Position numbers and translations under genes: made by a program. The notes beneath the pieces are model-generated. The model saw only the letters and a program-made list of their open reading frames with translations, did no database searches and was not told the DNA's origin. Source: Rhodococcus sp. 06-235-1A (GTDB lineage Bacteria > Actinomycetota > Actinomycetes > Mycobacteriales > Mycobacteriaceae). Taken from it: DNA of 64,000 nt. Numbering within the stretch: position 1 is the stretch's first letter; each line of letters starts with the position of its first letter. Positions 13,135 through 35,502 of the stretch are shown here, piece by piece. The stretch lies in contig NZ_NOYI01000021.1 of NCBI RefSeq assembly GCF_002258785.1, positions 496,001 to 560,000 on the forward strand. The letters run 5' to 3'.

Positions 13135-13135
13135 C

Positions 13136-14536: not shown

Positions 14537-14603
14537 GGGAGTGTTAGGAAATCCGAATCGGCTTGGTTCCAGGCTGTGCTTGCCGTCACAGTAGGGGGAC
14601 TTC

Positions 14604-14627
14604 GGTTGTCGAGTTCTCTCGGCAACC
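14604..14627 (+). promoter_or_regulatory. Hairpin in the leader of the MHS permease gene
   Basis: GGTTGTCGAG and CTCGGCAACC form a ten-pair stem (one G-U pair) with a TTCT loop, 28 bases before the permease ATG. It could be an intercistronic terminator/attenuator between kinase and permease or an mRNA stability element. No T-run follows. Confidence 0.45.
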
Positions 14628-14655
14628 CGACCCGCTCATCGTGGAAGGACCAACC

Positions 14656-16035: not shown

Positions 16036-16036
16036 G

Positions 16037-16984
16037 GTGACTGATATGACTCCGCCCGCAGCGTCGTTCTCGCGTAGAACGGCGCTGCAGGCCGGTGTGC
16101 TGGCTGTGCTCGGCGCTGCGACAGTGGGGTGTTCGCCGGATTCACCGACGCAGTTGCGTCTCGCGGCGGGTGAGGTCGGCGGCTTCTTCTGGGAGTTCGC
16201 CGGGCTGTTGTCCGACGCTTCCTCGAAAACCGATGTCGCGGAGATCGTTCCCCTCACGACGGCCGGCTCGGTCGACAACCTCGAGGCGCTGGGATCTGGC
16301 CGGGCCGAGCTGGCCCTGACGCTCATAGACGCCGCCTACAGTCATCCGAGCGGAGACTTGGCGGCGGTCGGGTGCGTCTACGAGAACTACTTCCAAGTTG
16401 CCGTGCTAGCGGACTCGACCATCGAGACCATGAACGATCTGCGCGGCCGGAACGTGAGCATCGGTGCCCCGGGATCTGGCGCGACCGAAGTGTCGCAGCG
16501 AGTCCTCCGCGCGGCGGGGGTGGCGGAACCCGGTGCAGTAGAGCAGGTTCAGCTGTCGATGAGCTCGGCGGCAGATGCCCTGTCGAGCAGCGAGGTCGAC
16601 GCCGTGATGTGGGCGGGCGGGTTGCCGACTCCGGCATTTGCTCAGCCTCCAGCTGCGATTCGTCTACTCGATCTCGGCACCGTCGTCGCCGATCTGAGAC
16701 GCGAATTCGGTACCGCATACGAGGCGGTGCGGGTTCCGGCGAACGTGTACGGCGAACACCCGGAGGTCACCACCGTCGGCATTCCGAATCTTCTGTTGGC
16801 ACATCCGGAGGTGCCGGACCGTGTGGTCGCCGCACTGGTGAGTGTGCTTCTCGATCAGTCGTCCGAACTGGTTCCCGGTCAGGCGATCGGTAGCCAGTTT
16901 CTCGACGCGCGGTCGCTCGTCATGACCGGCAGCATCCCCCTCCATCCCGGAGCCGAACAGGAATACCGTCGACGACATGGGTGA
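16037..16984 (+). CDS. TAXI-family solute-binding lipoprotein (Tat-type signal)
   Basis: This 315-residue protein has a twin-arginine motif (FSRRTALQ, Arg13-Arg14) and a lipobox ending in Cys32, so it should be exported folded and lipid-anchored. The mature part follows the TAXI pattern: LRLAAGEVGGFFWEFAGLL, SVDNLEALGSGRAELALTL, and NDLRGRNVSIGAPGSGATEV. Canonical TAXI proteins serve TRAP transporters, but no TRAP membrane gene is present. Instead the gene starts one base after the MHS permease and downstream of a two-component system. It may act as a sensory co-receptor for the kinase rather than as a transport protein. Confidence 0.85.
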   Translation: MTDMTPPAASFSRRTALQAGVLAVLGAATVGCSPDSPTQLRLAAGEVGGFFWEFAGLLSDASSKTDVAEIVPLTTAGSVDNLEALGSGRAELALTLIDAAYSHPSGDLAAVGCVYENYFQVAVLADSTIETMNDLRGRNVSIGAPGSGATEVSQRVLRAAGVAEPGAVEQVQLSMSSAADALSSSEVDAVMWAGGLPTPAFAQPPAAIRLLDLGTVVADLRREFGTAYEAVRVPANVYGEHPEVTTVGIPNLLLAHPEVPDRVVAALVSVLLDQSSELVPGQAIGSQFLDARSLVMTGSIPLHPGAEQEYRRRHG

Positions 16985-17000: not shown

Positions 17001-18485
17001 TCACAATTTCGCAGCGAGCCGGTGGTACGCCGCGTTCCATCGCAATGTCTGTTGAAATCCGCGCGTCGTGGTGTCGGAGTCGATGGCCAAGAGCTCGACA
17101 CCGATCATGTCCGAGAATGCCTCCAGCACAGGCAAACCGATCGCGGTGCTGAGTACGGTGTGGTGTGGTGCACCGGCCGTGAGCCAGGATTCCGCCGAGA
17201 CCGAGAGCGACGGCTGCGGTTCCCATACAGCGCACGCCACGGGTAGTTTCGGCAGTGCCTCGTCGGGTTCGACGACATCGATCACGTTGGCAGTCAGGCG
17301 GAATCGTTCTCCCACGTCCGAGAGTCCGACCACAACGCCGTGGCCGGGGTCAGCGGTGAAGCGCAGCCGCACCGGGTCCTCGCGGCCGCCGATGGACAGC
17401 GGATGGATCTCGAGCGTGGGCCGCGAGGTGGTGATCGACGGGCACACTTCGAGCATGTGTGCGCCGAGGATCTTCTCCGCGCCGGGAACGAGGTTGTAGG
17501 TGTAGTCCTCCATGAAGGAGGTTCCGCCGGAAAGGCCATCGGCCATCACCTTCATGGCACGCAACAACATCGAGGTCTTCCAGTCGCCTTCGCCGCCGAA
17601 GCCGTACCCGTCGGCCATCAGCCGTTGCACTGCGAGTCCCGGCAACTGACGAAGCCCACCGAGATCCTCGAAGTTGGTGGTGAAGGCCTTGAAGCCACCG
17701 TCGGTCAGGAACTGTCGCAGCCCGGCCTCGACGCGGGCCCCGTAGCGGAGAGATTCATGGCGGTCACCGCCCATGTCGAGACTCGGTGCGATGTCGTACG
17801 ACGACCGGTATTCGTCGATCAGGTCCGATATCGCGGAATCGCTCACGCTGTCCACGACCTCGACGAGATCGTTGACCCCGTAGGTGTTGACGGACACTCC
17901 GAATCGCAACTGCGCTTCGACCTTGTCGCCCTCGGTCACCGCGACGTCACGCATGTTGTCGCCGAAACGTGCCAGGCACAGTGACCTCAGCTCCGCGCGG
18001 CCGAGAGCTGCTCGCACCCACTGCTCCGCACGCTCGAGAACCGCAGGATTGTCGACGTGGCCCGCCACGATCGTGCGCAGAACACCCACCCGGGATTCGA
18101 CGTGCCCGAACTCGCGGTCGCCGTGGGCGGCCTGATTGAGGTTCATGAATTCCATGTCGATCGTGGACCAGGGCAACGACATTCCGGCCTGCGTATGCAG
18201 GTGCAGCAGCGGAACGTCCAACGCGTCGAGGCCGGCGATCCACATCTTGGCGGGGGAGAAGGTGTGCATCCACGTCACCACACCCACGCACTCGTCGGCG
18301 GCGTTGGCCTCGCGCATGGCGCGCAGGATGGACGACGCGTCGAGCAGTACCGGCTTCCAGACCACCGAGACCGGAAGTGCTGCATCGAGTTTGTCGGCGA
18401 TCTCGCGGGACTGGACTGCTACCTGCTCGAGGGTGTCCGGACCGTAGAGGCTTTGGCTGCCGGTGAGAAACCATACTTCGGACAT
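17001..18485 (-). CDS. araA: L-arabinose isomerase
   Basis: This 494-residue enzyme converts L-arabinose to L-ribulose. Length and sequence match the AraA family from the start ([20 protein letters not shown]) onward. Metal and catalytic segments are present: [29 protein letters not shown] and [11 protein letters not shown], and the late His pair in GAPHHTVLS. It is the last gene of araB-araD-araA, 36 bases after araD with a GGAAGG site. Expression is probably governed by the operator upstream of araB. Confidence 0.97.
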
Positions 18486-18521
18486 GGAGAATGTACCTTC
18501 CGTGGAAAATGGGTGCGCCGG

Positions 18522-19199
18522 TCAGCGCTGGCCGTAGACGTTCTGGTATCGGTCGTAGAGTGCGTCGACCGAGGAGCTCGGGATGCGAAGTGGTTGTCCC
18601 AGTTGGTAGGACAGATGTACCGATCGCGCGACGTCCTCGCACATGACCGCTGCCTTCACCGCCGATCGAGCGGTGGGTCCCACTGCGAACACGCCGTGGT
18701 TCTGCATCAGCACAGCGGGAGATCGACTGTCCGCGAGGGTGTCGACGATGCCGCGGCCGATCGAATCGTCGCCGATCGTCGCGAAGGGGCCGACGGGAAT
18801 GTCGCCGCCGAACTCGTCTGCGCACATCGTGGTGACCACGGGAATGGGTTCCCCTCGGGCCGCCCACGCAACGGCGTACGGCGAATGTGTGTGCACCACA
18901 CCGCCGATGTGATGGAGGTGCCGGTAGACGTAGGCCTGCGCCTCGGTGTCGGAGGAGGGTGCATGGTCACCGTCGACCACCTTGCCGTACAGATCGCACA
19001 CCACCATGTTGCCGGGCGTGAGATCGTCGTACGAGACGCCACTGGGCTTGATGACCATCAGATCCCGCCCGGGAACCCGCGCCGAGACGTTGCCGGCCGT
19101 CCACACCACCAGGCCGTACCGCACGAGCTCGGCGTGCAGCGTGCACACGTCGCGGCGGACTTCCTCGATGACCTCGCGCACGTCGTCGACAACCGTCAT
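18522..19199 (-). CDS. araD: L-ribulose-5-phosphate 4-epimerase
   Basis: This 225-residue class II aldolase-fold enzyme converts L-ribulose 5-phosphate to D-xylulose 5-phosphate, which enters the pentose phosphate pathway. The phosphate-binding TAGNVSAR, the zinc ligands in GGVVHTHSPYAVAWA and the later MQNHGVFAVG are all present. Length is close to E. coli AraD. The ATG at 19199 overlaps the araB stop (TGATG), so translation is coupled; residues upstream of it in the same open frame lie inside araB and are not part of the protein. Confidence 0.96.
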   Translation of the reverse strand: MTVVDDVREVIEEVRRDVCTLHAELVRYGLVVWTAGNVSARVPGRDLMVIKPSGVSYDDLTPGNMVVCDLYGKVVDGDHAPSSDTEAQAYVYRHLHHIGGVVHTHSPYAVAWAARGEPIPVVTTMCADEFGGDIPVGPFATIGDDSIGRGIVDTLADSRSPAVLMQNHGVFAVGPTARSAVKAAVMCEDVARSVHLSYQLGQPLRIPSSSVDALYDRYQNVYGQR

Positions 19200-20869
19200 C
19201 ACACATCCACCTTTCGAGCCAATGCGGTGCGTCGTAGTGCGCGCAGACGGCGCATCGTCGACACGTCCCGTCCGAATCGGTCGTGCAGTTCCACATAGAT
19301 CTCGAACAGGGAGTCGTAGGCGTGCGATCGCGATTCGTCGGGTACGAAAGCGGCCCGGCGCACCTTGCCCATCGACTTCGAGGCAACGGGCACGTCGGGG
19401 TAGCACCCGGCTGCCACTGCAGCGTGGATGGCAGATCCCAGTGCCGGTCCCTGCGCGGATGCAATGACGGACAACGGCATTCGTAGTACATCCGCATAGA
19501 TCTGCATGAGCAGCGGATTGCGTGCCAACCCGCCGGCAACGACGAACTCCTCGACCGGGACACCACTGTTGCGGAAGGTCTCCACGATGACGCGGGTTCC
19601 GAATGCCGTGGCCTCCAGCAATGCGCGGTAGGTGTCCTCGGGCCGCGTCGCGAGCGTCGATCCGATGACCAGACCGGACAGCTCGTGATCGACGAGGATC
19701 GACCTGTTGCCGCTGTGCCAGTCGAGCGCGACGAGGCCGTGCTCGCCCACTTGTTGCTTTTCCGCCAGTCGCGTCAGGTATTCGTGTACCGACTCGCCTG
19801 CGGCGGTTGCCGCCTCGCTGTAGGACGCCGGAACTCCGGTTCGCGTGAACCATCCGAATATGTCGCCGACGCCGCTCTGACCCGCTTCGTAGCCGAAGGA
19901 TCCGGCCACGATGCCGCCGTCGACGACTCCGCACATGCCAGGAACTTCCTTCAGCACAGTCGAACTCATGACGTGGCACGTCGACGTTCCCATGATCGCG
20001 ACCATCCGGCCCGGCTCCACCGCGCCGGCGGCGGGTGCCGTCACGTGCGCATCGACGTTTCCGACTGCGACGGCAATACCTTCCGGAAGACCTGTCCACC
20101 CGGCAGCCTCGGCGGTCAAGGACCCTGCGCGCGAACCCAAGTCGCCCAGCGGCTGGTCCAGCTTGTCGGCGACGAAGGATCCGAATCCCGGTGCGAGTTC
20201 GGTGAGGAAGTCCACGGACGGATACTGCCCGTCCTGATAGATGCCCTTGTATCCGGCAGTACAGGCGTTGCGCACATACGTACCGCAGAGCTGCCAGACG
20301 ATCCAGTCGGCCGCCTCCACCCACCGGTCCATCGCGTCGTAGATTTCGGGGTCTTCCTCGTGGATCTGCAGCGCCTTGGCGAACTCCCACTCGGAGGAGA
20401 TCAGTCCGCCGTAGCGAGGGAGCCAGCTCTCACCGCGCCGTTCGGCCAGATCGTTGATGCGGTCTGCTTGGCCCTGCGCCGCGTGGTGTTTCCACAGCTT
20501 CACGTAGGAGTGCGGTCGATCGGCGAAGCGCGGGTCCTCGCACAGTGGGGTGCCATCGGCATCGGTCGGCACCATGGTGCACGCGGTGAAGTCGGTGCCG
20601 ATGCCGACGACCTGTTCGGGTTCGATGCCTGCGGCGGCCAGAGCAGCGGGGACTGCAGTCCGCAGGACGTCCCGATAGTCGTCGGGTACCTGCAGGGCCC
20701 AGGCGTCGGGCAGTCGGACCGTGCCGCTCGGGAGCGTCTCCTCGAGCACCGCGTGACGGTAATCGTGTACGGCCGAGGCGATTTCGGTCCCGTCCGAGAC
20801 GCGGACGACGACGGCCCGGCCGGAGAGGGTGCCGAAATCGACTCCCACCGTGTAGCGGTCAACCGGCAT
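19199..20869 (-). CDS. araB: L-ribulokinase
   Basis: This 556-residue FGGY kinase phosphorylates L-ribulose. Its N-terminus (YTVGVDFGTLSGRAVVV) and GIGTDFTACTMVPTD carry the ATP/sugar motifs, followed by AIMGTSTCHVM and, near the C-terminus, VVAGGLARNPLLMQIYADVL. The length fits AraB (about 560) rather than xylulokinase. The ATG at 20869 with an AAGGAG site is preferred over an upstream GTG/ATG extension at 20896. It is the first gene of the ara operon. Confidence 0.96.
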   Translation of the reverse strand: MPVDRYTVGVDFGTLSGRAVVVRVSDGTEIASAVHDYRHAVLEETLPSGTVRLPDAWALQVPDDYRDVLRTAVPAALAAAGIEPEQVVGIGTDFTACTMVPTDADGTPLCEDPRFADRPHSYVKLWKHHAAQGQADRINDLAERRGESWLPRYGGLISSEWEFAKALQIHEEDPEIYDAMDRWVEAADWIVWQLCGTYVRNACTAGYKGIYQDGQYPSVDFLTELAPGFGSFVADKLDQPLGDLGSRAGSLTAEAAGWTGLPEGIAVAVGNVDAHVTAPAAGAVEPGRMVAIMGTSTCHVMSSTVLKEVPGMCGVVDGGIVAGSFGYEAGQSGVGDIFGWFTRTGVPASYSEAATAAGESVHEYLTRLAEKQQVGEHGLVALDWHSGNRSILVDHELSGLVIGSTLATRPEDTYRALLEATAFGTRVIVETFRNSGVPVEEFVVAGGLARNPLLMQIYADVLRMPLSVIASAQGPALGSAIHAAVAAGCYPDVPVASKSMGKVRRAAFVPDESRSHAYDSLFEIYVELHDRFGRDVSTMRRLRALRRTALARKVDV

Positions 20870-20893
20870 GCAGATCTCCTTCACGTTGCCACC

Positions 20894-20929
20894 CACTGTG
20901 ACGTGTGCAACACAGTGTGAGCGCTAACA
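20894..20929. promoter_or_regulatory. LacI-type operator and overlapping dyad upstream of araB
   Basis: TGTGAGCGCTAACA (20916-20929) is a near-perfect palindrome of the LacI/GalR type (central AGCGCT). It overlaps a second perfect dyad, CACTGTG (20894-20900) and CACAGTG (20911-20917), with a ten-base spacer. Both lie 25-60 bases upstream of the araB ATG, where they could block or modulate transcription of araBDA. No LacI, GntR or AraR gene is in the window, so the regulator must be encoded elsewhere. Confidence 0.7.
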
Positions 20930-22661: not shown

Positions 22662-24587
22662 TCAGTAGGACTCCTCGGCAACCATGATGCGAAGCATCGC
22701 GCGCACCCAGGCGTCCGCTGCTGCGTCCGATTCGCCGCCGGCAAGGTAATCGGCGATCAGCGAGAGCGATCGGCCCGTTGTGCGCATTCCGGCGTCGCTC
22801 ACGGTGCCTGCGCACACGCGTAGCGAGGCGATGTCGGACTCGGCGGCGTGGCGAACACCCCGGTGTGAGATGTCGGCGAGAGTACCGAGCGCAGCGGCGA
22901 TCGCGTTGTCGACAGCATCGACACGGTCCGAAAGGGGGGTCCGGGTCAATTGGGTTGCGCTGTCGGCGGGTTGGAGATCGGGAACGACGACACCGAGTTC
23001 GCAGGCCACGGCAGTGGGGGCGATGCGTAGCACACCGGCGCGGGCATCGATCGGCCCCGCGACGGTTCGCGGTCCCGCTGACATCGCGTTCAGTACTGCG
23101 TCGATCGCGCCAGGCGCTTCACTGCGGTGCTCGACGACAACATGTGCTCGGTTTCCCAGTTCATCCGATATCACCACAGTCGACAGCTGTTCCGAAGGGG
23201 AGTAGTCGATGTCGATCACCGAATGGACTCCGATCAACCCGATGTTGTCGGTGGTCACCCTGTCCCGTGCGAAGGACGGCCTGCGTTCGGTGAATCGGCG
23301 TCGTGCCTCGGAGTAGTCGTGTATCACGTTCGGCGAACCGTTCCAGGCTTCCGTGCTCAACGGAAGAATGGACGTTCGGCCGATTCCTCGGCGTCCCAAT
23401 CTGATTCTGCGATTCGCGCGCCGGACGGCGGATTCGGTCACGATCGTCGACGTCGAGAGGTTGCCGACAGTGGTGCCCCCGGTCCGGCGCGCTACAACGC
23501 TGTGGCCGGTCAGGTTTTCACCGGACCAATGGCGGCGCAGGACATACACCGCATCCGAATCGAGCTCGGAGAAATAGACGTCGACGTCGATGCCATCGAC
23601 GACGCGGGTTGCCCGTGCTCCGAGCCCCGCCAGAACCGTACGCCTGAGCGGTGTTTCGCCGGAGCTCTCGGCACCGAGCGCATGGGCGGCGAGGGCCGCG
23701 TCCGCGGACGCACCCAACTCGACTCGAGCGTGAATCTCGCCGATGACTCGGGCGACCCTGGTGCGATTGTGCCGTGCGCTGCGGCTTGTGTACGCGTCGA
23801 GTTGATCGGTCAGCTCGACGCACGCGTCTGCCAGCCACACGGTCCGTCCGGCCTGAATGTGGTGAGTCGTTCGGGCAGCGGCCGCCCGTTGCACCGACGA
23901 CGTGCCCGCTACCCCGTCGAGGAGGATCGTTCGCGCCAGGGTCCGGCCCGCCGCCGGTGCTTGCGCAACCTCGACAGTTGCTGCAGTACTGACGAATACA
24001 TCCTCTCGGCCCAGTTCGTCCGATGCGCGCACAGCCCACACTGCCAGGACGATCGAGTCCGGAGCGACCTCGGGCGATGCCGAGGAATGGGCATGGCCGA
24101 GCTCGTGTGGTGTGAGAAACCGAACCGTACAGTGCGGGAGTTCGACGCGAACGGCGGATGCAGGATCACTCGGCCGTACGACTCTGGCCTGATAGCCATC
24201 GCTTCGAGTTCTTCTGGCTCGCCGAACCGCCGCAGCCCCGAGGTGACGCTCCAGATCGGCATCCTCGAACTGCCCCGGCGTCCAGGATTCGGCGGGGGAA
24301 GGAGTCTCGTGTCGTGCTCGATACGCGAGTACCAGACCTATCCGGTGTCGGCACACTGCGGCGGCACCGCAGGTGCACGACGCCTCATCGAAGGGAGTCG
24401 AGGATGGCAGTTCCGTGACTGCACCGTCGGCGAATCGCGCGGTTATGCACTCGTCCGACACCGAGAGCGCCGGAGGCTGTTCGTCCACCATGCGAAGGGC
24501 CCTCTTGAGAAGTCCTCGATTGGCCACGATCGCCAACGCCTCGTCGGTGAGTGCAGCAACGTCCGGTCTCGTCGTCATCGATGCCAC
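22662..24587 (-). CDS. SWIM zinc-finger protein (YehQ-like)
   Basis: This 641-residue protein has a SWIM zinc finger near its N-terminus: Cys71, Cys73, Cys79 and His81 in CTCGAAAVCRHRIGLV. SWIM domains usually bind DNA or proteins. The remaining 550 residues are mixed alpha/beta with no recognisable catalytic motif. It is the last gene of the five-gene DUF4132/MoxR/DUF5682/VWA/SWIM operon and starts within five bases of the VWA stop. GTG at 24587 is used; ATG at 24578, three codons later, is an equally good start. By family and position it corresponds to E. coli YehQ. Confidence 0.85.
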   Translation of the reverse strand: MASMTTRPDVAALTDEALAIVANRGLLKRALRMVDEQPPALSVSDECITARFADGAVTELPSSTPFDEASCTCGAAAVCRHRIGLVLAYRARHETPSPAESWTPGQFEDADLERHLGAAAVRRARRTRSDGYQARVVRPSDPASAVRVELPHCTVRFLTPHELGHAHSSASPEVAPDSIVLAVWAVRASDELGREDVFVSTAATVEVAQAPAAGRTLARTILLDGVAGTSSVQRAAAARTTHHIQAGRTVWLADACVELTDQLDAYTSRSARHNRTRVARVIGEIHARVELGASADAALAAHALGAESSGETPLRRTVLAGLGARATRVVDGIDVDVYFSELDSDAVYVLRRHWSGENLTGHSVVARRTGGTTVGNLSTSTIVTESAVRRANRRIRLGRRGIGRTSILPLSTEAWNGSPNVIHDYSEARRRFTERRPSFARDRVTTDNIGLIGVHSVIDIDYSPSEQLSTVVISDELGNRAHVVVEHRSEAPGAIDAVLNAMSAGPRTVAGPIDARAGVLRIAPTAVACELGVVVPDLQPADSATQLTRTPLSDRVDAVDNAIAAALGTLADISHRGVRHAAESDIASLRVCAGTVSDAGMRTTGRSLSLIADYLAGGESDAAADAWVRAMLRIMVAEESY

Positions 24588-24591
24588 CCGC

Positions 24592-25797
24592 TCATCGGAT
24601 GCAGCCGGCCACGAATTCGGCCAAACCGCCCGGCGTCATCGCACCGACGTGCACTCCGAGGCGTGCGAGGCGGCGAGCAATCTCGCGGTCGTAATCAGGT
24701 TCCCCACCCTCGTCCAGTGCCGCAAGGGCGAGCACCTTCACGCCCTCGTCCGTGAGTCGAGATATGCTGCGTACGAACGTATCCGGCGCACTCTCGTACA
24801 GATCGGAGATGATCACCACGATGGTTCGGCGAGGTGTGTCGACGAGTTGTCCCGCGTAGTCGACGGCCTTGGCTCCGTCGTTGCCACCGCCGAGTTGAAC
24901 CCCCATCAGTAGTTCGACCGGGTCGAGCACCTCGGAGGTGAGGTCCACGACGTTGGTGTCGTACGCGATCAGATGGGTTCTCAAACCGGGGACGTTCCAG
25001 AAACACGCCGCGGTCACCGCGGAGTGCACGACCGAATCCACCATCGATCCCGACTGATCCACCAGCAGGATCAGGGTCCACGTGTCGGTGTGCCTACGGG
25101 TCCGAGACGAGAACAGCGGTCGCTCGATGGCGATCGATCGGGTTTCCGGTGACCAATGCTTCAGATTCGCGAGAACCGTTGCAGGAAAGTCGAAGTTCCG
25201 TGAGTTGCGAAACGACGTGCGCTGTCGACTGCGGGTGCCGTGAAATGTCTTTCGCACGTCGACGGACAGCTTCTCGATCAGCTCACGGACCACCTCGTCC
25301 ACTGCCTTCTTGGCCATCGCCAGCACCCGCGGATCCATGAGGTGCTTCGTGCGCAGCAGAGCGCGCAGCAGCGTCACACTCGGCTCGATACGTTCCAGGG
25401 CCTCCGGGTCGGTCACCACCTCGGTGATCTCGTACTTCTCGACGGCATCTCGCTCGAGGCGATGGATCGTTTCGCGAGGGAAGAGCCGGTGGATGTCGTC
25501 GAGCCAGTCCACCGCTGTCACCACGGTGGTCCCGATTCCGTTCGGCCGCGCACGGCTTCCGCGGCGGCGTTCGGCGCCTGCATCCGTGGATGTGTCGGTT
25601 CCGTCGCCACCGTCCGACGCGGAACTCGCTGACGCCGAGCGTGATCCGCCCGCCCGCACTCCCTGCGCCGCGCGCGCAGGGTCTCGACCGTACAACCATT
25701 CCAGAGCGCCATCGCGCTCGGCAGCCTCACCGGTGACGTCACCGAGGACACTCGCCGACGCATCACCCAGGATCAGCCGCCATCGCTCCGCACTCAT
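24592..25797 (-). CDS. VWA-domain protein (YehP-like)
   Basis: This 401-residue cytoplasmic protein has a Ser/Gly/Asp-rich linker (about residues 45-90) and a helical middle. The C-terminal von Willebrand A domain has the MIDAS motif DQSGSM (247-252), the loop GGGNDGAKA and VVIISDLYE. VWA proteins of this type act as partners for MoxR-type ATPases, binding substrates or clients through a metal ion. Its ATG overlaps the stop of the DUF5682 gene by four bases. It corresponds to E. coli YehP by domain type and gene order. Confidence 0.9.
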   Translation of the reverse strand: MSAERWRLILGDASASVLGDVTGEAAERDGALEWLYGRDPARAAQGVRAGGSRSASASSASDGGDGTDTSTDAGAERRRGSRARPNGIGTTVVTAVDWLDDIHRLFPRETIHRLERDAVEKYEITEVVTDPEALERIEPSVTLLRALLRTKHLMDPRVLAMAKKAVDEVVRELIEKLSVDVRKTFHGTRSRQRTSFRNSRNFDFPATVLANLKHWSPETRSIAIERPLFSSRTRRHTDTWTLILLVDQSGSMVDSVVHSAVTAACFWNVPGLRTHLIAYDTNVVDLTSEVLDPVELLMGVQLGGGNDGAKAVDYAGQLVDTPRRTIVVIISDLYESAPDTFVRSISRLTDEGVKVLALAALDEGGEPDYDREIARRLARLGVHVGAMTPGGLAEFVAGCIR

Positions 25798-27986
25798 CGC
25801 AATCCGATCTCGTCGAGCTGCGCGTCGATCCGCCCGTCGAGCAGCACGCCGGGCTCGACCGATTCGGGAACCGGCGACGCGGTGGATGCGGCGACGAACC
25901 GCGCAGCAACCGCGCTGCGTTCACGGGGAGGGAAGAACTCGAAGGACTGCCGCAGGGCAGGGAGCGCAACCAGGAAGTCGTGCTCGGTCAGGCCGCTCAC
26001 GACGTCGTCGACTGCTGTCAGAACCGCGTTGCCGGAGCCGTTGTGGAGGAAACTCTCGCGTGCGACACCGAACAGACCGCACAGCCAGTCGCCGAGCCGA
26101 TCCGGCGCGATCGATCGAACTGCTGCCGCGGCCGAAGCCGGCGTCGAACGACTCCACGACGTGCCCAGTGCTGCCCCTCTCATATCGACCGCTGCGCCAT
26201 GGTCGGCTGCCAGCAAGGCCAGCTCGGTTGTGGGATCGTCGGTGAGAAGCCGTGCAGCGTGGCGCATCACGTCGGCGACAACCGCCATTGCTTCGATTCG
26301 GCCGATGTCTGCGCCGCCCGGTGTCGCCCGGCTCCGTCGGGCGAGCGTGATCACCCGGGAGCACGCCGCGGTGACGACAGCCCCCAACACTGTCGAGCCC
26401 CGACTGCCGAAAAGGAAATCGTGCCGCCAGAGGTCGAGAGATGTTCGTGCGAGTAGTCCGACGTCCGCGAGGTCGGCGGCCGCGTGGAGAGATTCGACCG
26501 CCACGAGGGCGGTAGCGTCGGACATCGAGTCGAGCCCGCACAGGACTGCGTCGAAGAGCAGCTCGGCAACTGTCGCGACGTCTGATCCGCCGCGTCGCAG
26601 TGCGGATTCCAACTGTGCGGACGACGCTTCGACCAGGGTGTGGCCGTGGGCTGCTGCTTCGGTCAATGCCGGATCCCGCTCGTCCGTCTGCGTGATCACC
26701 CACTGCTCGGCCGAGAGCATGTCCGATCCACCGGTGGGGCCGAATGTTCGTCCGAATCCCGGTATCCCCAACAGCCGCAACTGGTGCAGCACGCGGCTGC
26801 GGGTACGGCCTCGGTGGTCGGTGAGGTCCAGTGAGACCGTGCCGGGAACAAGATCGAGTTCTTCGAGAAGCATGTCGACGTGATGGACGAGGCCAGGTGC
26901 GGGGGAGTCGGGATGCAGTGCGCCGCGCCGGTCTCCGCGCATGGTGCGGACACAAGCGGTGATCACCGGGTCCGGATCGACGCCGTCCGGCTCGCCCGCA
27001 CGTGTCCACGGTAGCGGCGAGGTCAGGGCCTGGTCGATCAGGGAACCGGCCGCTGCGTCCAGGACGTCGCGGCGCGTCGGGGTCGAATGGCCGCGCATCG
27101 CGGCCAGTGCAAGGGCTTGCGTGCGGAACCCGATGACGTCGGTGGTCGAGACGTGGTGGCCCTGCGATCGCAGAGAGCGCACGAGTGCCTCGATCGCGAT
27201 CTGGGGTGCCGAAATGCCGTTTCGCCACAGCATTTCGTACCACCACGGTGCTTCGAGCCGCAGCCGACGATAGGAGTACGGAATCAGGTAGGTGCCGACA
27301 TCGAGACTCGGTTCCGCCACAGGCACGGGAGGCCATGCGTCGCTCGGCGGTGGACCGGCGGTCAACTCTGCCATGATTGCGGGCCGATGGTACCCGCCGC
27401 AGACGACCACGACCGGTCCGCCTCGGAGCTGGGCGGACCGGGCCCATGACGCCATGTACTTCTCTCGTGCGGACGCTGCCGGGCCACCGGCACGGACCAT
27501 GTCGAAATAGGTGTTCAGGATGTCGATCATCTGCGATGTCGTGGTCGCCTGTGCGCGACATTCCACGACGTGATCCCACATCGCGTCGACGGTGTCGAGA
27601 CCCATGCGCTTCATCGCTGTCATCGCCGCAGCGCTGTATCGCTCTGTTTCCGAATCGAAATCGGGATGCCACGCTGGAAGGTCGATGAATCGGGACTCCG
27701 CACCGACTCTGGCTGCCTGCTCGAGCGCCACCCACTCGGGCGAGAAATCGGTGAATGCGGTCCACGTGACCCGCGTGGACCGTCCATTCCTGGCATGGGA
27801 GAAGAGGGCGATCGGGAGCTGGTGCCCTCTGGTCAGATCCGTCAGACGGCCGGTGTAATCCGCAGGCCCTTCGATCAGCACGTGGGCCGGCCGCACTCGT
27901 TCGATCGTGTCCGACACCACCCGAGCACAGGCGGGACTGTGGTGCCGGACTCCGATGACGATTACCGAGCTGTCGAGGTCGGTCAC
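25794..27986 (-). CDS. DUF5682-family protein (YehM-like)
   Basis: This 730-residue protein begins with GVRHHSPAC (residues 12-20) and then VLIEGPADY (about 36-44). The spacing resembles the GxxH and acidic Glu motifs of TraB/Tiki/EreA-fold hydrolases, suggesting a metal-dependent active site; this comparison is my inference. The rest is largely helical, with CGGYHRPA near residue 195 giving another conserved-looking His. GTG at 27986 is chosen because it overlaps the ATPase stop (TAGTG) and starts directly before the conserved strand; the frame is open further upstream inside the ATPase gene. It is the third gene of the operon. Confidence 0.85.
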   Translation of the reverse strand: MTDLDSSVIVIGVRHHSPACARVVSDTIERVRPAHVLIEGPADYTGRLTDLTRGHQLPIALFSHARNGRSTRVTWTAFTDFSPEWVALEQAARVGAESRFIDLPAWHPDFDSETERYSAAAMTAMKRMGLDTVDAMWDHVVECRAQATTTSQMIDILNTYFDMVRAGGPAASAREKYMASWARSAQLRGGPVVVVCGGYHRPAIMAELTAGPPPSDAWPPVPVAEPSLDVGTYLIPYSYRRLRLEAPWWYEMLWRNGISAPQIAIEALVRSLRSQGHHVSTTDVIGFRTQALALAAMRGHSTPTRRDVLDAAAGSLIDQALTSPLPWTRAGEPDGVDPDPVITACVRTMRGDRRGALHPDSPAPGLVHHVDMLLEELDLVPGTVSLDLTDHRGRTRSRVLHQLRLLGIPGFGRTFGPTGGSDMLSAEQWVITQTDERDPALTEAAAHGHTLVEASSAQLESALRRGGSDVATVAELLFDAVLCGLDSMSDATALVAVESLHAAADLADVGLLARTSLDLWRHDFLFGSRGSTVLGAVVTAACSRVITLARRSRATPGGADIGRIEAMAVVADVMRHAARLLTDDPTTELALLAADHGAAVDMRGAALGTSWSRSTPASAAAAVRSIAPDRLGDWLCGLFGVARESFLHNGSGNAVLTAVDDVVSGLTEHDFLVALPALRQSFEFFPPRERSAVAARFVAASTASPVPESVEPGVLLDGRIDAQLDEIGLR

Positions 27987-29071
27987 TAGGGAGCCAAGTG
28001 TGCGTGTGCTTCGCGCAACTCTCGCCAGGACTGGCCGGATCGATGAGTGGACCGCTGCTCGATGTACCTGCGTAGGCGAGCGGTGTCCTCGGCGTTGTCC
28101 TTGGTGGCGGTCCCGGCCAGAGATTCGGCCAAATCCCTGACCGAGCCGCAATCGCCGCGCAGATACCATCCGCGGATGCCGGTGGCGTGAGCCAGAGACA
28201 CCGCCTCGGCGGTGCTCAGCACCGAGGACAAACGTTCGACGGCCGTGCCGTCGGCGGCGAATCCCGTTCGGAGATCACGGAACAACGTGACCAAAAGTTC
28301 TGTGACAGCGGGATCTTGAGCTATGTCGACGCCCGAGGCGCGCAACAGCTCGGCCGACTCCGAACGGACCAACTCGATCTCGGTGTCGAAGTCCGAGATC
28401 GGGTGCACGGTCTCGAAATTGAATCGCCGCTTGAGTGCGGCACTCATTTCGTTCACTCCGCGATCACGGGTGTTCGCTGTCGCGATCACGTTGAAACCCT
28501 CACGTGCATAGACCATCGCATCGATGCCGGCCAGTTCCGGCACCGCCATGACGCGCTCCGACAGCAAGGACAGCAGAGTGTCCTGCACTTCGAGCGGGCA
28601 GCGGGTGATTTCCTCGAACCGCACGACGCGGCCCTCTGACATGCCGCGCATCATCGGTGCCGGGATCAACGACCGAGTCGACGGCCCTTCGGCCACGAGG
28701 AGCGCGTAATTCCACGAGTACCGGATTTGGTCCTCGGTGGTTGCAGCGCCGCCCTGGATCGTGAGAGTCGAGTCTCCGCTGACAGCCGCAGCGATCAACT
28801 CCGAGAGCATCGACTTCGCGGTGCCGGGCTCGCCGACCAGCATCAGCCCTCGTGTCGTGGCGAGGGTGACGAGCGCACGTTCGACCAAAGACGGATTGCC
28901 GATGTACTTCTCCACGATCCCACGGTCGGCGTCGCCCATGACGAACGAACGCGCCGCCGTCAAACTCAGCTTCCATCCGGGTGGTCGAGGCCCGCGGTCC
29001 TCTTCTGTCAACTGCTCGAGTTCGGCTGCGTAGCGCTTCTCCGCAGGCGGTCTCTGAACCTGCGCTGTCAT
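27986..29071 (-). CDS. MoxR-type AAA+ ATPase (YehL-like)
   Basis: This 361-residue AAA+ ATPase has Walker A GEPGTAKS (80-87), a Walker B in VVRFEEI (about 149-155) with Glu-Glu in place of Asp-Glu, and sensor 1 in IATANTRD (about 196-203). Arginines at 216-217 (LKRRF) are candidates for the arginine finger. MoxR-type ATPases remodel or activate client proteins with a VWA partner, here encoded two genes downstream. The ATG at 29071 overlaps the DUF4132 stop by four bases and starts a hydrophilic N-terminal extension. It is the motor of the proposed system. Confidence 0.92.
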   Translation of the reverse strand: MTAQVQRPPAEKRYAAELEQLTEEDRGPRPPGWKLSLTAARSFVMGDADRGIVEKYIGNPSLVERALVTLATTRGLMLVGEPGTAKSMLSELIAAAVSGDSTLTIQGGAATTEDQIRYSWNYALLVAEGPSTRSLIPAPMMRGMSEGRVVRFEEITRCPLEVQDTLLSLLSERVMAVPELAGIDAMVYAREGFNVIATANTRDRGVNEMSAALKRRFNFETVHPISDFDTEIELVRSESAELLRASGVDIAQDPAVTELLVTLFRDLRTGFAADGTAVERLSSVLSTAEAVSLAHATGIRGWYLRGDCGSVRDLAESLAGTATKDNAEDTARLRRYIEQRSTHRSGQSWRELREAHAHLAP

Positions 29072-32000
29072 GATGCGAATCCGTCCAGGTCGGCAATCAG
29101 TTCGGACACTGTTGCACGATCTACGTCGTCCAGCGTTCCGCCCCGCAGGTCCACCGAAACGAGTTTCTGATCCGGGTAGCCGTTGTAGGGATCGCCGGTA
29201 CCCATACCGGGATCGAGTCCGAGCAGCACCGATACGGAGTCGCTCAGCTCGTACAGCAGACCCTGCCCCCACGACCCCGGGTTCTCCCAGACCGGTTCCC
29301 AGCCCCGGTGAGTGAGCCGAAGTGCTTGGCTCGGCGTCGCGGTCACTCCGGTGAATCGTGCGAGACCGGTTCCATCGACGTCACCGGGCAGAGGGTCGTG
29401 CACCGGCCTGCCGAGTTGAGCGAACGGCTGCAGGATCTCGTAGTCGGCGAACACCTCGGACCAGGTACCCACGGTGTCCGGAATGTGCGCTGGGTGGACG
29501 AGTCCGACGCGTCCGACCGGCAGGTCGATCGAATTGTCGTCGATGTCGGCGAGGGTGCTGTCCTCGGCCACTCGAAACACCACGACGGGCCGATTGCTTG
29601 CGTCGAACGACGCCCACAGAAGGCGTCGAGCGAGATGTATCAGCAGAGGGTGCCCGAGTACGTACTCCGAGAATTCGTCTCCAGTCCAACGTCTTCCCGT
29701 GACCATGGATCGGTTGAGGCGCTTGATCTGCTCGGCTGCAACGGATTTCGCTTCGCGTTTGAGGTCGGCGAAGCGCTTCTTGGCGTTCTCGGCAAGTACC
29801 GCGTCGTCGGCAGTGGACGGCTTGGGTAGTCCGGACGTCTTCTTGCCGTTCTCATCGAGCACGTACGGCACGAGCGCTTCGGTGAACCCGATGGTGAACG
29901 TTCGTCGCCCGTAGTCGAATGTCATGGTTCCGTCGGGTGTCAGGTCCAGCGTGGGAACGATTCGATCCGCCAGTTGTTCGCGGTCGAGCCCAAGGCTGTC
30001 GGCCAATTCTGCGACTCGCTGCTTGGCACCGTTCCTCAGCGACTTGAATTTCATCTTCCGTGAGATGTAATCGAGTTCGGTCAGTGCCCTGGCCGATCCG
30101 TGTGCCGCGAGCGCGTCGAGGCCCAATTGCGCTCGAGCAGTGCCGTTCTCGCCCGGCCATTGCCTGATGAGGGGAGCCAGTCTCAGGACGGTCGAATCGT
30201 CCCCCAACCAGCCGAGGGCCAAGATCGCCCAGTTTTCCTTGGACGGGGCGCCGGCACCCCACCACCGTTGGAACAGCTCCCATGCAGTAGCGGCAAGAGT
30301 GCCGCTGTCGCAGTACTCGATCACGTGCTCCAGCCCGGCATAGGGAGCCTCGACTGCCCCGATGGCACACATCGTGACGATGTTGGCCACCGCCGAATCC
30401 GGCAGTGCTGCAGATCGGTCTGCGGTCAGGGTGGGCGGCAGCGATGCGATATCCGCCCACGGCGGTGTTCTGGGAATACGTTTGGGAAGTTTGTCGAGGG
30501 GATCGAGATCGACGATCGACGCAATCGCCGCCACTGCATCCGTGCCGTACCGACCCGCTCCACCGAGCACGAGATCACGCGACGTACTGCGGACGAGACC
30601 CCGGAGGGCCTCTGCCGCATGATCTCGTCGAGGGCCGGCCGGTCCCACCGCATCGGGTGTCAACAACGTCACGGCATCGTCGGCATGCCGAACGAGCCAC
30701 GCCAGCGCCGGCTTTCGGAGGTTCTTTCTCGTGGCGTACGTCGTGGCGTGCAATCGAGCCACCTCGAGGTTCACGTACGGCATCAGGTACGGCGCAGCAG
30801 CACCCGGGTGAGCGCGAGCGTGCCGAAGCACGAGAGGGAGAGCGTCGAGTTCGTAGCGAGCAACGACGCGAAGTGGCTCCTTGAGTTTCACCCCGTCCCA
30901 CGTCGACAGGAGCGGTCGAGCGACGTCGTCGGGGGCCATCAGAAACATCTGCCAGACGGACCACTCGTTCAGGCCGTATTTCTCGGTGAAGTCCTCGATG
31001 TACTTCCGTTGTTGTTCCCACGACGAATAGCTGTAGCTGTGGGGAGTGTTGGCAATCGCTTCCAATTCGCCTGGAAGCCAATCGATCCGGTGAATCTCGG
31101 GAGCGTCGAGTCCGGTGATCGGGGCGACGTCCGGTGACTTCGTTCGCGTCGCCCACGGCGGATCGACAAGAATGGTCGGGAGATCGGTCGCCTCGGGAAA
31201 CGAGCTGGAGAGCTCCGATATTCGGCGTCGAGCCCGCTCCGACAGCGTCGGCGCAACGTCCCTCGCCAAGGCGGGATGCAGCCGAACATGTCGATCGAAC
31301 AGCGCGTGATCGGCCCCGTCCAGGACGGTGAAGGCCCGACGCGGATAGCTGCGCATCGCGTGCACGATCGCGGGCAATCCGCTCTTCATGCCCCCGCGTT
31401 CCACGAGAGCAGAGAACGCCTCGTCGGTGGGAATCGCGGACAATGCGTGAAGAATCCGCAGAAGCCTGGTCTCGTCCCGTGCACCGGTGTATGGGTTCGG
31501 AGTATCGAAGGCGTCGAGCAGCATGGGCAGGATGGACGCACCTATGCCCTCGACGACCGCCGCAAGCGTCTCGTCGTCGTCGAGCCATCGCTGCGGGCCG
31601 TATACGTTGGCCGTCCGTTGCAGTTGATCGAGAGTGTTGGAAGAGACCATCTGCTGGGTGTTCCAGTGGTAGGTCTCCACTCGCGTCCCCATGATCGCGT
31701 CTTCCGCCCACTGCTGTTCGGTCGGAAACACGTACATCGAGGTCAGTTTGCGTACGGTGTTGGTCCGTAGAGACTCGACGGCAGCGCGAGCTGCCTCGTA
31801 CTCTTCCGCGGACGCGACAGCGATCAAGCCGCGCATTCTGTCGAGCATGTACTCGAGAGGCGTGTACGTTACCTGTTCTTCAGGGTTGTCCACCTGTGAG
31901 AGTTGTTCTCGGTAGACGTATTTCGGAATCGGTATACTCTCGCCGGGTTCCGTGGTTCCGATGGTCGAGGTGATGAACACGGCATCGTCCGGAAGATCGG

Positions 32001-32418
32001 CTACCGCAATGCTTACGGTGCTGAAGCGCATGTCGGACATTTCCATGAGGGCTTCGGAGGCGAATGCCAGCCCATGCCTGGCGACCCAGCCATCGATGAT
32101 GAGGTCTGCGTGCTGGCGGTCCCGGCCGCTCCAGCGGTTCAGCAGGTAGTGGAGAGCCGCGGCACCGACGGCCGATGCCTCTCCCGCTCGGTACTTTCGT
32201 GCCGCCAGAGTCAGATCGCCCGGGTCGTCGTCGTCGACCAGATACCACGAGGTATCGGCCAAGGTCTGCTCGTCGTTCTCGATCTTCTCGGCCAGCTCTA
32301 CGCCGGCATCGGGATGGACCGGTCGGACGACGGTGGGATAGCCCCCGCGTCGGGGGTACTTCATCGGCAACCACGCCGCGGGCGGTACGGACACGGATTC
32401 GGTCACCTTGTTGCTCAC
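29068..32418 (-). CDS. DUF4132 protein (MolR/YehI-like), 1116 residues
   Basis: This very large cytoplasmic protein is built mostly of helical repeats that look HEAT-like in the middle. Toward the C-terminus it carries the DUF4132 signature: GTMTFDYGRRTFTIGFTEAL, GLPKPSTADD, then RSMVTGRRWTGDEF and GHPLLIHLARRLLWASFD. E. coli homologues (MolR/YehI) often add a WGR domain, which I do not see here. GTG at 32418 follows a GAGGAG site four bases earlier; the frame is open to 32568 but that part is Pro/Arg-rich and unlikely to be coding. First gene of the five-gene operon. Confidence 0.88.
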   Translation of the reverse strand: MSNKVTESVSVPPAAWLPMKYPRRGGYPTVVRPVHPDAGVELAEKIENDEQTLADTSWYLVDDDDPGDLTLAARKYRAGEASAVGAAALHYLLNRWSGRDRQHADLIIDGWVARHGLAFASEALMEMSDMRFSTVSIAVADLPDDAVFITSTIGTTEPGESIPIPKYVYREQLSQVDNPEEQVTYTPLEYMLDRMRGLIAVASAEEYEAARAAVESLRTNTVRKLTSMYVFPTEQQWAEDAIMGTRVETYHWNTQQMVSSNTLDQLQRTANVYGPQRWLDDDETLAAVVEGIGASILPMLLDAFDTPNPYTGARDETRLLRILHALSAIPTDEAFSALVERGGMKSGLPAIVHAMRSYPRRAFTVLDGADHALFDRHVRLHPALARDVAPTLSERARRRISELSSSFPEATDLPTILVDPPWATRTKSPDVAPITGLDAPEIHRIDWLPGELEAIANTPHSYSYSSWEQQRKYIEDFTEKYGLNEWSVWQMFLMAPDDVARPLLSTWDGVKLKEPLRVVARYELDALPLVLRHARAHPGAAAPYLMPYVNLEVARLHATTYATRKNLRKPALAWLVRHADDAVTLLTPDAVGPAGPRRDHAAEALRGLVRSTSRDLVLGGAGRYGTDAVAAIASIVDLDPLDKLPKRIPRTPPWADIASLPPTLTADRSAALPDSAVANIVTMCAIGAVEAPYAGLEHVIEYCDSGTLAATAWELFQRWWGAGAPSKENWAILALGWLGDDSTVLRLAPLIRQWPGENGTARAQLGLDALAAHGSARALTELDYISRKMKFKSLRNGAKQRVAELADSLGLDREQLADRIVPTLDLTPDGTMTFDYGRRTFTIGFTEALVPYVLDENGKKTSGLPKPSTADDAVLAENAKKRFADLKREAKSVAAEQIKRLNRSMVTGRRWTGDEFSEYVLGHPLLIHLARRLLWASFDASNRPVVVFRVAEDSTLADIDDNSIDLPVGRVGLVHPAHIPDTVGTWSEVFADYEILQPFAQLGRPVHDPLPGDVDGTGLARFTGVTATPSQALRLTHRGWEPVWENPGSWGQGLLYELSDSVSVLLGLDPGMGTGDPYNGYPDQKLVSVDLRGGTLDDVDRATVSELIADLDGFAS

Positions 32419-33727: not shown

Positions 33728-33918
33728 CGTCGATATCCGTTTCTTTTCGAGGTACGCGAACCGGAATCGGCTCGCGCCTCGATTTAGCCCGCGAAACCGG
33801 CCCGAGGTCCAGTCGAAAAATGGACATACAGTGTGAATCGGGCGGGAAACTGCACCGACCTCTCCCCGGGTGGTTCAATCGGGTGTTGACCGTCTGTCTA
33901 CGAACGCGAGGACCGAGC
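33728..33918. promoter_or_regulatory. Divergent intergenic region (ketoacyl synthase / GGDEF)
   Basis: This 191-base gap carries both divergent promoters. A TTGACC hexamer at about 33893 is a possible -35 for the GGDEF gene but has no matching -10. The open frame from 33820 into the GGDEF gene is judged leader, not coding. Confidence 0.35.
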
Positions 33919-35502
33919 ATGGGCCCAGGGGAGCGCGAAAGCGTCGGCGACCCTGAATCGCGTTCCGCGTCGCCTGGATTGGCAGATCGCTACCGGGTTC
34001 TCGTCGAGCATTCACCGGACGCAATCGGGGTGCACAGACGCGGCACGATGGTCTATCTGAACCCCGCCGGAATGAGGTATCTCCGCGCCGAGACGCCCGA
34101 TGACGTCATCGGGCGTCCGATCACCGAGTTCATCGCGGCGGAATCGGTCGGGCCCATGTTCGAGCGGATCGCCGCTCTCGACACCCACGGCACCGCCAGC
34201 GCAGCGTCCGAAGCGACGGTGCTCGCTCTCGACGGGACGACGCTGACGATGGAAGCGGTGTCGGTGCGCACCGTGTGGAACGGTGAGCCGGCGTTCCAGG
34301 TCATTCTGCGAGACCTCACCGAGCACAAGGCTGCGCAGAGGGCACTGCAGTACCAGGCCGCTCTGGTCCAGCACGTCAGTGATGCCATCGTCGGAGTTTC
34401 GTCCGACGGTCTGGTGTCGAGCTGGAACCCCGGTGCCGAATCGGTGTACGGCAGATGCGCGTCGGACGTGCTCGGGCGCAGCGTGTCCCACGCGGTGGGG
34501 GTGCCCTGCGATCCGGCCTCGATACTGCTGGCCGGTGGCCGACTGTGCGAGTCGCATCGCCGCGCCGACGGGACGGCACTGGCGGTGGTGGTGTCCGCGG
34601 CACAGATGCCCGACGGCTGGGTGTTGGTGTGCGCCGACCGAAGCGCAGTGCGACGGGCCGAGGAGCACTACACCGCGGTGGTGGAATCGCTCGAGGCCGG
34701 AGTCGTCGTACTCGACCACACCGGACGCATCGAATCGGCGAACCTCGCGGCGAAGACGATTCTCGATCTCGAGGTCGGATCGGAGACGACCGGTCAGGCG
34801 TCGACCCTTCCGTTCCGGGTGTACGGCACCGACGAAGGTCCGATTCACCCGTACGAGCACCCGGTCGCCGTCACCAGGAAGACCGGTAGGCCGAGCCAGG
34901 CGGTGATCGGTGTCGAGCGTCGACGGGACGGACGCAACTTCTGGCTGTCGTTGACATCGACGATGCTCGACGCCGGCAACCCCGCGCCGTCGATCGTCGC
35001 GACGTTCGTCGACATCACCGACTCCTACCGGATGAGTATGAAACTCGAGTATGCGGCGACACACGACGACCTGACGGGCCTGCCGAACAGGCCGCTGATC
35101 ATGGCGCGCCTCGACGAAGAGCTGGCGCGGCCGGCCCGCGACGACGCCATGGCGGTCCTGTTCATCGACCTCGACAACTTCAAGACGATCAACGACCTGC
35201 ACGGTCATACCGTCGGCGATGCAGTATTGGGCGTGGTCGCTGCGCGTCTGACGCGGGCACTGCCGGCCGATGCCTTCGTCGGACGGATCGGTGGAGACGA
35301 GTTCGTGGCTGTTGTGCCCCGTTGTGCGGGGACCGAGGCCGACGATGTGCGTGCCGAGCTCGCCACACCCATCACGACCGCCGGCCGCGCCTTGACGGTG
35401 ACGGCGAGCATCGGCGGAGTCACCGTCGATCGCTACGACACCCGAAGTGCGCTGGCCATCCTCGACGACGCCGACCACGAGATGTACCAATCCAAACCCT
35501 GA
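33919..35502 (+). CDS. PAS-PAS-PAS-GGDEF diguanylate cyclase
   Basis: This 527-residue soluble protein has three PAS-like domains (roughly 22-130, 142-240 and 248-360). A GGDEF domain follows, starting at YAATHDDLTGLPNR, with an intact GGDEF motif near residue 458. It should make cyclic di-GMP from GTP in response to a signal sensed by the PAS domains. The residues before GGDEF lack the RxxD inhibitory site, so product inhibition is probably absent. No EAL domain is attached. ATG at 33919 follows a GAGGA site and is preferred over an ATG at 33820. Confidence 0.88.
   Translation: MGPGERESVGDPESRSASPGLADRYRVLVEHSPDAIGVHRRGTMVYLNPAGMRYLRAETPDDVIGRPITEFIAAESVGPMFERIAALDTHGTASAASEATVLALDGTTLTMEAVSVRTVWNGEPAFQVILRDLTEHKAAQRALQYQAALVQHVSDAIVGVSSDGLVSSWNPGAESVYGRCASDVLGRSVSHAVGVPCDPASILLAGGRLCESHRRADGTALAVVVSAAQMPDGWVLVCADRSAVRRAEEHYTAVVESLEAGVVVLDHTGRIESANLAAKTILDLEVGSETTGQASTLPFRVYGTDEGPIHPYEHPVAVTRKTGRPSQAVIGVERRRDGRNFWLSLTSTMLDAGNPAPSIVATFVDITDSYRMSMKLEYAATHDDLTGLPNRPLIMARLDEELARPARDDAMAVLFIDLDNFKTINDLHGHTVGDAVLGVVAARLTRALPADAFVGRIGGDEFVAVVPRCAGTEADDVRAELATPITTAGRALTVTASIGGVTVDRYDTRSALAILDDADHEMYQSKP

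Follow-up and report, generated by a model that had tools for sequence, protein, structure and literature searches.

So far, pairs of a MoxR-type AAA+ ATPase and a VWA-domain protein have been connected with the insertion of metals, with the assembly of respiratory complexes and with proposed conflict systems. Seven MoxR subfamilies have names, and one of them is YehL, which is also one of the two MoxR ATPases of Escherichia coli K-12 (PMC3893208). Here we describe an operon that combines a YehL-type MoxR ATPase with four other genes and lies on the minus strand at 22662-32418 of a 64,000-nucleotide stretch (the window) of the 6.1-Mb genome of Rhodococcus sp. 06-235-1A (NZ_NOYI01000021.1, positions 496,001 to 560,000). 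With slightly better than even confidence, we read it as an ATP-driven DNA-damage-response machine in which a MoxR-VWA motor would drive a TraB-like hydrolase, and the set probably helps cells to cope with damaged DNA. If this is true, MoxR-VWA pairs have a new job. New here are a candidate TraB/TIKI-like domain in the DUF5682 protein and a DNA-damage promoter before relatives of the operon. Through these, an orphan set of six phyla, counting any layout, becomes testable by its link to DNA damage and its likely hydrolase partner.

Among the closest described systems, the yehI-L-M-P-Q genes of E. coli have five families and an order in common with the window, whereas E. coli adds yehK and genes for WGR and WGR-DUF4132 proteins (yehF, and yehH, which is broken in K-12). 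The CoxD-CoxE and NorQ-NorD systems also join a MoxR ATPase to a VWA partner, and the VWA protein in the window is of the CoxE type. Unlike them, the window family has a constant DUF5682 protein, SWIM protein and solenoid, and relatives have DNA-damage promoters. In the ternary MoxR-vWA conflict systems that Kaur et al. described in 2020, a large third component likewise joins MoxR and VWA, but the main text of that paper is without DUF4132, YehL, SWIM, WGR and DUF5682 (PMC7159879). Pfam detected no VMAP, iSTAND, FtsH or beta-propeller domain in the five proteins (bpMoxR reached 20.8 bits, below its cut-off of 27), although its models may not cover all such domains. Searches of the open-licence literature yielded no function for the gene set or the yehL operon, no mention of DUF5682 and no link to PafBC.

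The five-gene set and its layouts

An earlier note on this DNA had proposed five minus-strand families with overlapping or near-touching junctions, and the reading frames and Pfam bear this out. E-values are 5e-45 for DUF4132, 1.7e-36 for AAA_5, 1.2e-78 for DUF5682 and 1.2e-45 for VWA_CoxE. The junctions read ATGA (29068-29071), TAGTG (27984-27988) and ATGA (25794-25797), followed by a 4-base gap 5' of the GTG of the SWIM gene. The features of the operon are as follows.

29068..32418, minus strand: DUF4132 protein, 1116 amino acids; GTG start at 32418 with GAGGAG directly 5' of it; only DUF4132 match of the genome
29299..29847, minus strand: PF13569 DUF4132 domain (Pfam)
27986..29071, minus strand: MoxR AAA+ ATPase of YehL type, 361 amino acids; its ATG overlaps the DUF4132 stop; AAA_5 in Pfam
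28811..28834, minus strand: Walker A motif, GEPGTAKS (alignment and conservation)
25794..27986, minus strand: DUF5682 protein, 730 amino acids; GTG start; Pfam; model with a mean predicted local distance difference test score (pLDDT) of 88.9
27348..27983, minus strand: candidate TraB/TIKI-like domain, residues 2-213; G12xxH15, E39, R174, G197xxH200
25848..26732, minus strand: predicted C-terminal helical solenoid of DUF5682, residues 419-713 (model)
24592..25797, minus strand: CoxE-type VWA protein, 401 amino acids; PF05762 E-value 1.2e-45; 47% to YehP
25042..25059, minus strand: start of the VWA metal site (metal ion-dependent adhesion site, MIDAS), DQSGSM; the later Thr is Asn here
22662..24587, minus strand: SWIM-type protein, 641 amino acids; 24% to YehQ, E-value 6e-34
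24345..24377, minus strand: SWIM zinc motif C71xC73x5C79xH81, invariant in 35/35 aligned relatives

The genome as a whole has one match each for DUF4132, DUF5682 and the YehL-type MoxR, and three for CoxE-type VWA proteins. As the note had stated, E. coli K-12 carries the same families in the same order: yehI (DUF4132), yehL (MoxR), yehM, yehP (VWA) and yehQ (SWIM), with the small yehK separating yehI from yehL. RefSeq labels yehM as DUF5682 in other E. coli. BLASTP identities between the window and K-12 proteins are 61% for MoxR, 47% for VWA, 34% for DUF5682, 31% for DUF4132 and 24% for SWIM, with E-values from 3e-153 to 6e-34. Across E. coli, 5162 of 5426 genomes match yehL-Q with a query coverage of 80% or more. 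In strain EC31, yehL and yehM are annotated as broken and yehP and yehQ as intact (L240:9001-12368), alongside three tandem DUF4132 genes, one of them annotated with WGR.

A genome scan with a MoxR alignment listed at least 568 relatives, and we examined the best 80 loci, which lean to actinobacteria because they are the best-scoring subset of the longer list. All five families are present in 73 of these 80 loci, from 26 genera. Of the other seven, four stop at a contig border or lie on a short contig and three are without DUF4132 in the stretch examined. The very wide phylogenetic spread claimed earlier was also found, with the window-type set in Actinomycetota, Pseudomonadota and Myxococcota and other layouts in Deinococcota, Bacteroidota and Fusobacteriota. 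Among the matches listed, the named relative nearest to the window MoxR comes from Rhodococcoides trifolii (82%). Beyond actinobacteria, the set is complete in Hyalangium, and two Archangium loci are without DUF4132 in the stretch examined. Within the window's class (197 genomes), YehL-type MoxR occurs in 45 genomes and DUF5682 in 44, and DUF5682 lies within about 600 bases of MoxR at 64 of 67 places, as counted by hand from listings; two of the three exceptions (L076, L079) show DUF5682 with our own profile. In Archangium's phylum, DUF5682 is found in 45 of 146 genomes. Plasmids carry the set in Agrobacterium vitis, where WGR-DUF4132 comes after DUF5682, and in Iodobacter. The Iodobacter plasmid is mobilizable, and its set (L082:4161-23425) lies amid transposases, adjoins type I restriction-modification genes and has its SWIM gene as two frames.

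Beyond the form shared by the window and E. coli, which we name type A, there are three further layouts (B-D, names coined here), each with MoxR, DUF5682, VWA and a SWIM or SWIM-like gene. Type B consists of a DUF4132 domain protein, a 1640-aa protein, MoxR, a DUF5682-VWA fusion and a SWIM-like protein, whose CxC/CxH motif, checked in L089, falls below the Pfam cut-off. The order in type C, found in Rhizobium, Methylosinus, Hymenobacter and Deinococcus, is SWIM-DUF5691-MoxR-DUF5682-VWA; in genus g22 (L071), SWIM-DUF5691 is divergently oriented. Type D has a small SWIM-like protein, a 471-aa protein, VWA, MoxR and DUF5682. The label SWIM-like is ours for this small protein, which has a C...C...CxH stretch and no Pfam match. 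DUF5682 and the CoxE-type VWA form a single protein in all five type B loci (L089:13119-16892, L067, L068, L069 and L070, all actinobacterial), and such a fusion is direct evidence of an association between DUF5682 and the VWA adaptor. DUF4132-matching frames number one to five per locus in 77 of the 80 loci. Two Salinispora stretches (L105, L154) carry, upstream of the type A set, a second one that resembles type D (VWA-MoxR-DUF5682).

The DUF5682 protein and its partners

Numbered from the GTG at 27986, the N-terminal region of DUF5682 contains residues that are near-invariant in all layouts: H15, E39, D102, E142, R174, E175 and H200. Their arrangement recalls TraB, where a GxxH is followed by a Glu at +26, on the next strand, and a later Arg stands 26 residues before a second GxxH; the corresponding DUF5682 spacings are 24 and 26. 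H15, E39 and H200 are in register with TraB H22, E48 and H248, with the His-Glu-His order kept. Type D DUF5682 reads LELCE at the Glu position, which we take to resemble the TraB motif. The active site of the TIKI superfamily consists of two His and two Glu residues (PMC6254334).

Profile comparison gave P = 5.5e-4 for DUF5682 against TraB (hhalign probability 30%) and 4.2e-3 against erythromycin esterases. Five unrelated families gave 0.22-0.69 and reversed profiles 0.06-0.29, and with type D DUF5682 alone the value was 0.008. The two best VIA rows for the DUF5682 model cover residues 2-213 with Z-scores of 9.3 and 8.8, and are 8bqs_DQ and 7w5z_E, chains of Tetrahymena complex IV entries. As the 8BQS paper reports a TraB-family protein among the complex IV subunits (PMC10060162), we infer that these chains are that subunit. 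A TraB protein and the TraB profile, searched against solved sequences, found no complex IV chain, and the Pfam TraB family has no member in 79 genomes of the window's class. Together, models and motifs support, short of proof, a TraB/TIKI-like N-terminal domain. DUF5682 is a likely hydrolase, as the note had guessed, judged from its motifs and predicted fold. Unlike the superfamily, DUF5682 carries a long solenoid, predicted to make up the rest of the model, and adjoins a MoxR-VWA pair, and hydrolysis is putative here.

By sequence, the window MoxR is a member of the YehL subfamily, much nearer to YehL (61% over 357 amino acids) than to the other E. coli MoxR, RavA (25% over 110 amino acids, E-value 0.003), these two being the comparison made. 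It retains the GEPGTAKS, FEE and ATAN stretches. The VWA protein scores 156 bits with PF05762 (cut-off 26.4) and keeps the DxSxS and later Asp of the metal site, with the Thr replaced by Asn; among aligned VWA frames, DQSGSM occurs in 104/104 and the later Thr in about 90%. The SWIM protein scores 14.0 bits in Pfam, below the cut-off of 19.6; its C-x-C-x5-C-x-H motif is nevertheless invariant, as listed above.

The DUF4132 model (mean pLDDT 87.5, predicted template modelling score 0.75) is a long ARM/HEAT-like solenoid over residues ~34-821 with a C-terminal alpha/beta DUF4132 domain. Its matches to CAND1, importins and ATR are generic for solenoids and indicate a scaffold only, and Foldseek rows for it are weak and mostly solenoid-like. 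The predicted solenoid agrees with the earlier suggestion that DUF4132 is a scaffold. No WGR match was found in the window's DUF4132 protein. A relationship between DUF4132 and DUF5691 was considered and rejected, as profile comparison showed none.

DNA-damage promoter sites in relatives

The published RecA-NDp consensus, tTGTCRgtg-8 nt-TannnT (PMC5656591), is the site of PafBC (PMC6789036). It came to our attention in a scan of eight regulatory patterns over the upstream stretches of 98 clusters, where it was the one pattern in clear excess. Within one mismatch of 12, it was found on the sense strand of 18 of the 98 stretches, always with a spacing of 8, against one on the antisense strand, 0.6 expected from random windows and 10 for the best of 150 permuted cores. 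These stretches begin at profile-labelled genes, and type B and D loci, measured inside operons, count as misses. Actinobacterial LexA boxes occurred in one of the 98 stretches (0.35 expected), and E. coli-type LexA, HAIR, CIRCE, Zur and DtxR patterns in none.

We then searched 16 whole genomes, with 34 systems, for the perfect pattern TTGTCRGTG-N8-TANNNT. This gave 309 sites, compared with one for the reversed pattern. A perfect site lies 5' of the first gene and points at it in 22 of the 34 systems and in all four layouts, where chance predicts 0.02 (500-base windows) to 0.3 (7 kb). By type, sites were found in 2/5 (A), 5/9 (B), 10/14 (C, towards the divergent SWIM gene) and 5/6 (D) systems; genus g22, taken to be Streptomyces, has them in 21 of 24. 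The count of 22 was made by hand from listings, and a script then confirmed each hit: at 22/22 the downstream frame is the first gene of the system, starting 7 to 80 bases on. These first genes encode SWIM (10, type C), DUF4132-domain (5, B), small SWIM-like (5, D) and DUF4132 (2, A) proteins. In type C the SWIM gene begins 7 bases past the site in 10/10 cases, the same spacing as for recA in genome G057, and in annotated records the distance to the first gene is 85 bases (L089) and 44 bases (L088). Of the 16 genomes, ten were represented by a locus in the eight-pattern scan, where three hits among the 22 (G133 type A, G057 type A, G101 type C) had already appeared; dropping these leaves 19/31.

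In the window's own genome, the same perfect pattern stands 5' of genes whose products have domains of UvrB, SbcD and RNase H; in G133 it stands 5' of genes with UvrA, O6-methylguanine methyltransferase and DNA polymerase III gamma/tau domains. We inspected 30 of 78 sites and sent ten of the linked genes to Pfam, mostly chosen for a repair-like look; six had repair or replication domains, one was a DEAD helicase, one WGR and two DUF222. The remaining 20 include recA, recognised by its motif, and others that resemble a second UvrB, a transposase or transporters or are unclear frames. The systems therefore share a promoter with DNA-repair genes in these genomes, and a regulatory link to DNA damage in the relatives is well supported at the level of sequence. 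DUF222 proteins stand directly behind perfect sites in the window's own genome (L241 and L256, on G000:C1 and G000:C31), which suggests that some DUF222 genes may be damage-induced. Many relatives thus share the consensus and spacing of the PafBC/RecA-NDp regulon, whereas the window's own copy is without a site. A 2022 paper states that conservation of the M. smegmatis motif in S. venezuelae was not found in an initial search (PMC9380542).

Further hints, each weak alone, come from elsewhere. In the type C operon of Deinococcus taeanensis (L083), a DdrO-like box lies with its end 19 bases 5' of the first gene and keeps 13 of 15 consensus positions. Mitomycin C raises, in an IrrE-dependent manner, two D. 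radiodurans proteins, DRA0166 (DUF4132) and DR2173 (WGR) (PMC8533742). In E. coli, a LexA-like box ends 7 bases 5' of yehF (WGR); it is the best of 18 CTG-N10-CAG matches in 28 kb, tied with one at L001:23902, and recurs in strain GPEC1186 with one change. The D. radiodurans paper brings up the LexA regulon in this connection (PMC8533742). In M. smegmatis without pafBC, MoxR1, MoxR2 and a VWA protein, of the YehL type or another, were lower by about 1.6-1.7 fold (PMC5656591).

Proposed function and alternatives

In the machine that we propose, the YehL-type MoxR would form a motor ring with the CoxE-type VWA protein as adaptor. DUF5682, with its TraB/TIKI-like domain on a solenoid, would be the dedicated partner that the motor opens, activates or feeds. 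We suggest that MoxR acts through the VWA protein on DUF5682 because of the type B fusion and by analogy with known MoxR-VWA pairs, whose ring works on the VWA protein; NorQD, for instance, supports metal insertion by remodelling its VWA partner (PMC13036017). SWIM and DUF4132, a predicted solenoid with a WGR domain in some relatives, would recognise the target, probably damaged DNA or proteins on DNA. Both domains are known from DNA repair, WGR in the PARPs of eukaryotes and SWIM in SWS1, a recombination factor. In many actinobacteria the operon has a PafBC-type (RecA-NDp) promoter, as do recA and uvrAB, and would be induced by damage; its proteins would assemble, and DUF5682 would hydrolyse a substrate; the window copy may respond to damage likewise.

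Several observations weigh against this machine. The sequence link of DUF5682 to TraB is weak (the 30% above), TraB against erythromycin esterase itself gives only P = 0.08, and a Z-score of 9 is just slightly above the level of unrelated models. Foldseek found no match to the DUF5682 model at E ≤0.001, its weak rows being mostly solenoid-like. In a Williamsia metagenome-assembled genome (L092:7124-9289), the conserved His and Glu at the TraB-like site of DUF5682 are replaced, possibly giving an inactive enzyme. As for the promoter, the window operon has no RecA-NDp site within one mismatch (window 15001-40000; the best, with three, equals background), and its genome holds 12 sites elsewhere. 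Sites are also absent from the Rhodococcoides trifolii operon (best four mismatches), from the systems of G161, G016, G031 and G095 and, within two mismatches, upstream of the Lentzea, Micromonospora and Salinispora loci examined. The search covered 16 of the 45 MoxR-bearing genomes, mostly picked for having several systems. The 17-base DdrO-like pattern concerns one locus and, at up to three mismatches, is expected 0.76 times in the stretch, where three matches were found and 1 of 100 shuffles equalled this. The LexA-like box comes from a looser scan with 7/20 mismatches, and the strict LexA consensus at up to three mismatches is absent from the E. coli stretch. Finally, breaks in yehH (K-12) and in yehL and yehM (EC31) mean that the set is dispensable in those strains; in an ST131 sublineage a resistance transposon is inserted in the DUF4132 region (PMC9334617).

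A bolder form of the proposal, which we regard as doubtful, is a hitherto unrecognised, ancient machine class in which MoxR-VWA drives a TraB/TIKI-fold peptidase, and SWIM, WGR and solenoid parts direct it to proteins that are bound to broken DNA or stuck on it. If true, bacteria would have a counterpart, functional but unrelated in descent, to the proteases with which eukaryotes remove DNA-protein crosslinks.

The families, their order, the E. coli parallel, the spread and the guesses of a scaffold and a possible hydrolase in the earlier note all stand, but its suggestion of a defence or conflict role is not supported. We consider it unlikely that the set serves against phages or in conflict, with MoxR-VWA as the threshold switch of a hydrolase effector. 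The MoxR-VWA conflict systems described so far include some that have a third component (PMC7159879), the number of DUF4132 frames varies from locus to locus, one plasmid copy adjoins restriction-modification genes, and damage induction would fit a suicide response too. One phage record even contains a partial DUF5682 relative (27% over 65%, E-value 1e-22). PADLOC models, however, gave no useful match to the five proteins (best E-value 0.038), a MoxR scan of viral contigs gave no relative, the set is present in nearly all E. coli genomes, and the window copy is flanked by metabolic genes.

Still more improbable is a chaperone for cofactor or metal insertion like CoxD-CoxE or NorQ-NorD, possibly for a molybdoenzyme. 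The CoxE-type VWA has a nearly intact metal site, NorQD provides the precedent given above (PMC13036017), and a neighbouring E. coli gene has the old name molR, described as molybdate-related (PMC4245954, PMC8533742). Yet no metalloenzyme client was seen as a constant neighbour, either in the annotated loci read or in the commonest flank clusters. The constant partners are instead DUF5682, SWIM and a solenoid, the D. radiodurans moeA and moeB are described as not co-regulated (PMC8533742), and DNA-damage promoters fit such a role poorly. A damage-induced cell-fate device, with the TraB-like hydrolase as a self-directed effector that halts growth under excess damage, has only a slim chance: the damage promoter in relatives, a likely hydrolase beside the motor in every layout and gene decay in some strains would fit, but no antitoxin-like partner was noticed, and a housekeeping benefit would better explain why the set is conserved over phyla and within E. 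coli.

Around the operon, a sugar catabolic cluster (L-arabinose isomerase, class II aldolase-like domain, FGGY kinase) lies at window 17001-20896 on the minus strand. At 12409-16984 a response-regulator-like frame, recognised by eye, and a histidine kinase come before a gene resembling a sugar transporter and one for an NMT1-like binding protein. On the opposite strand, upstream of the operon, 33820-35502 encodes a protein with several PAS domains and a GGDEF domain.

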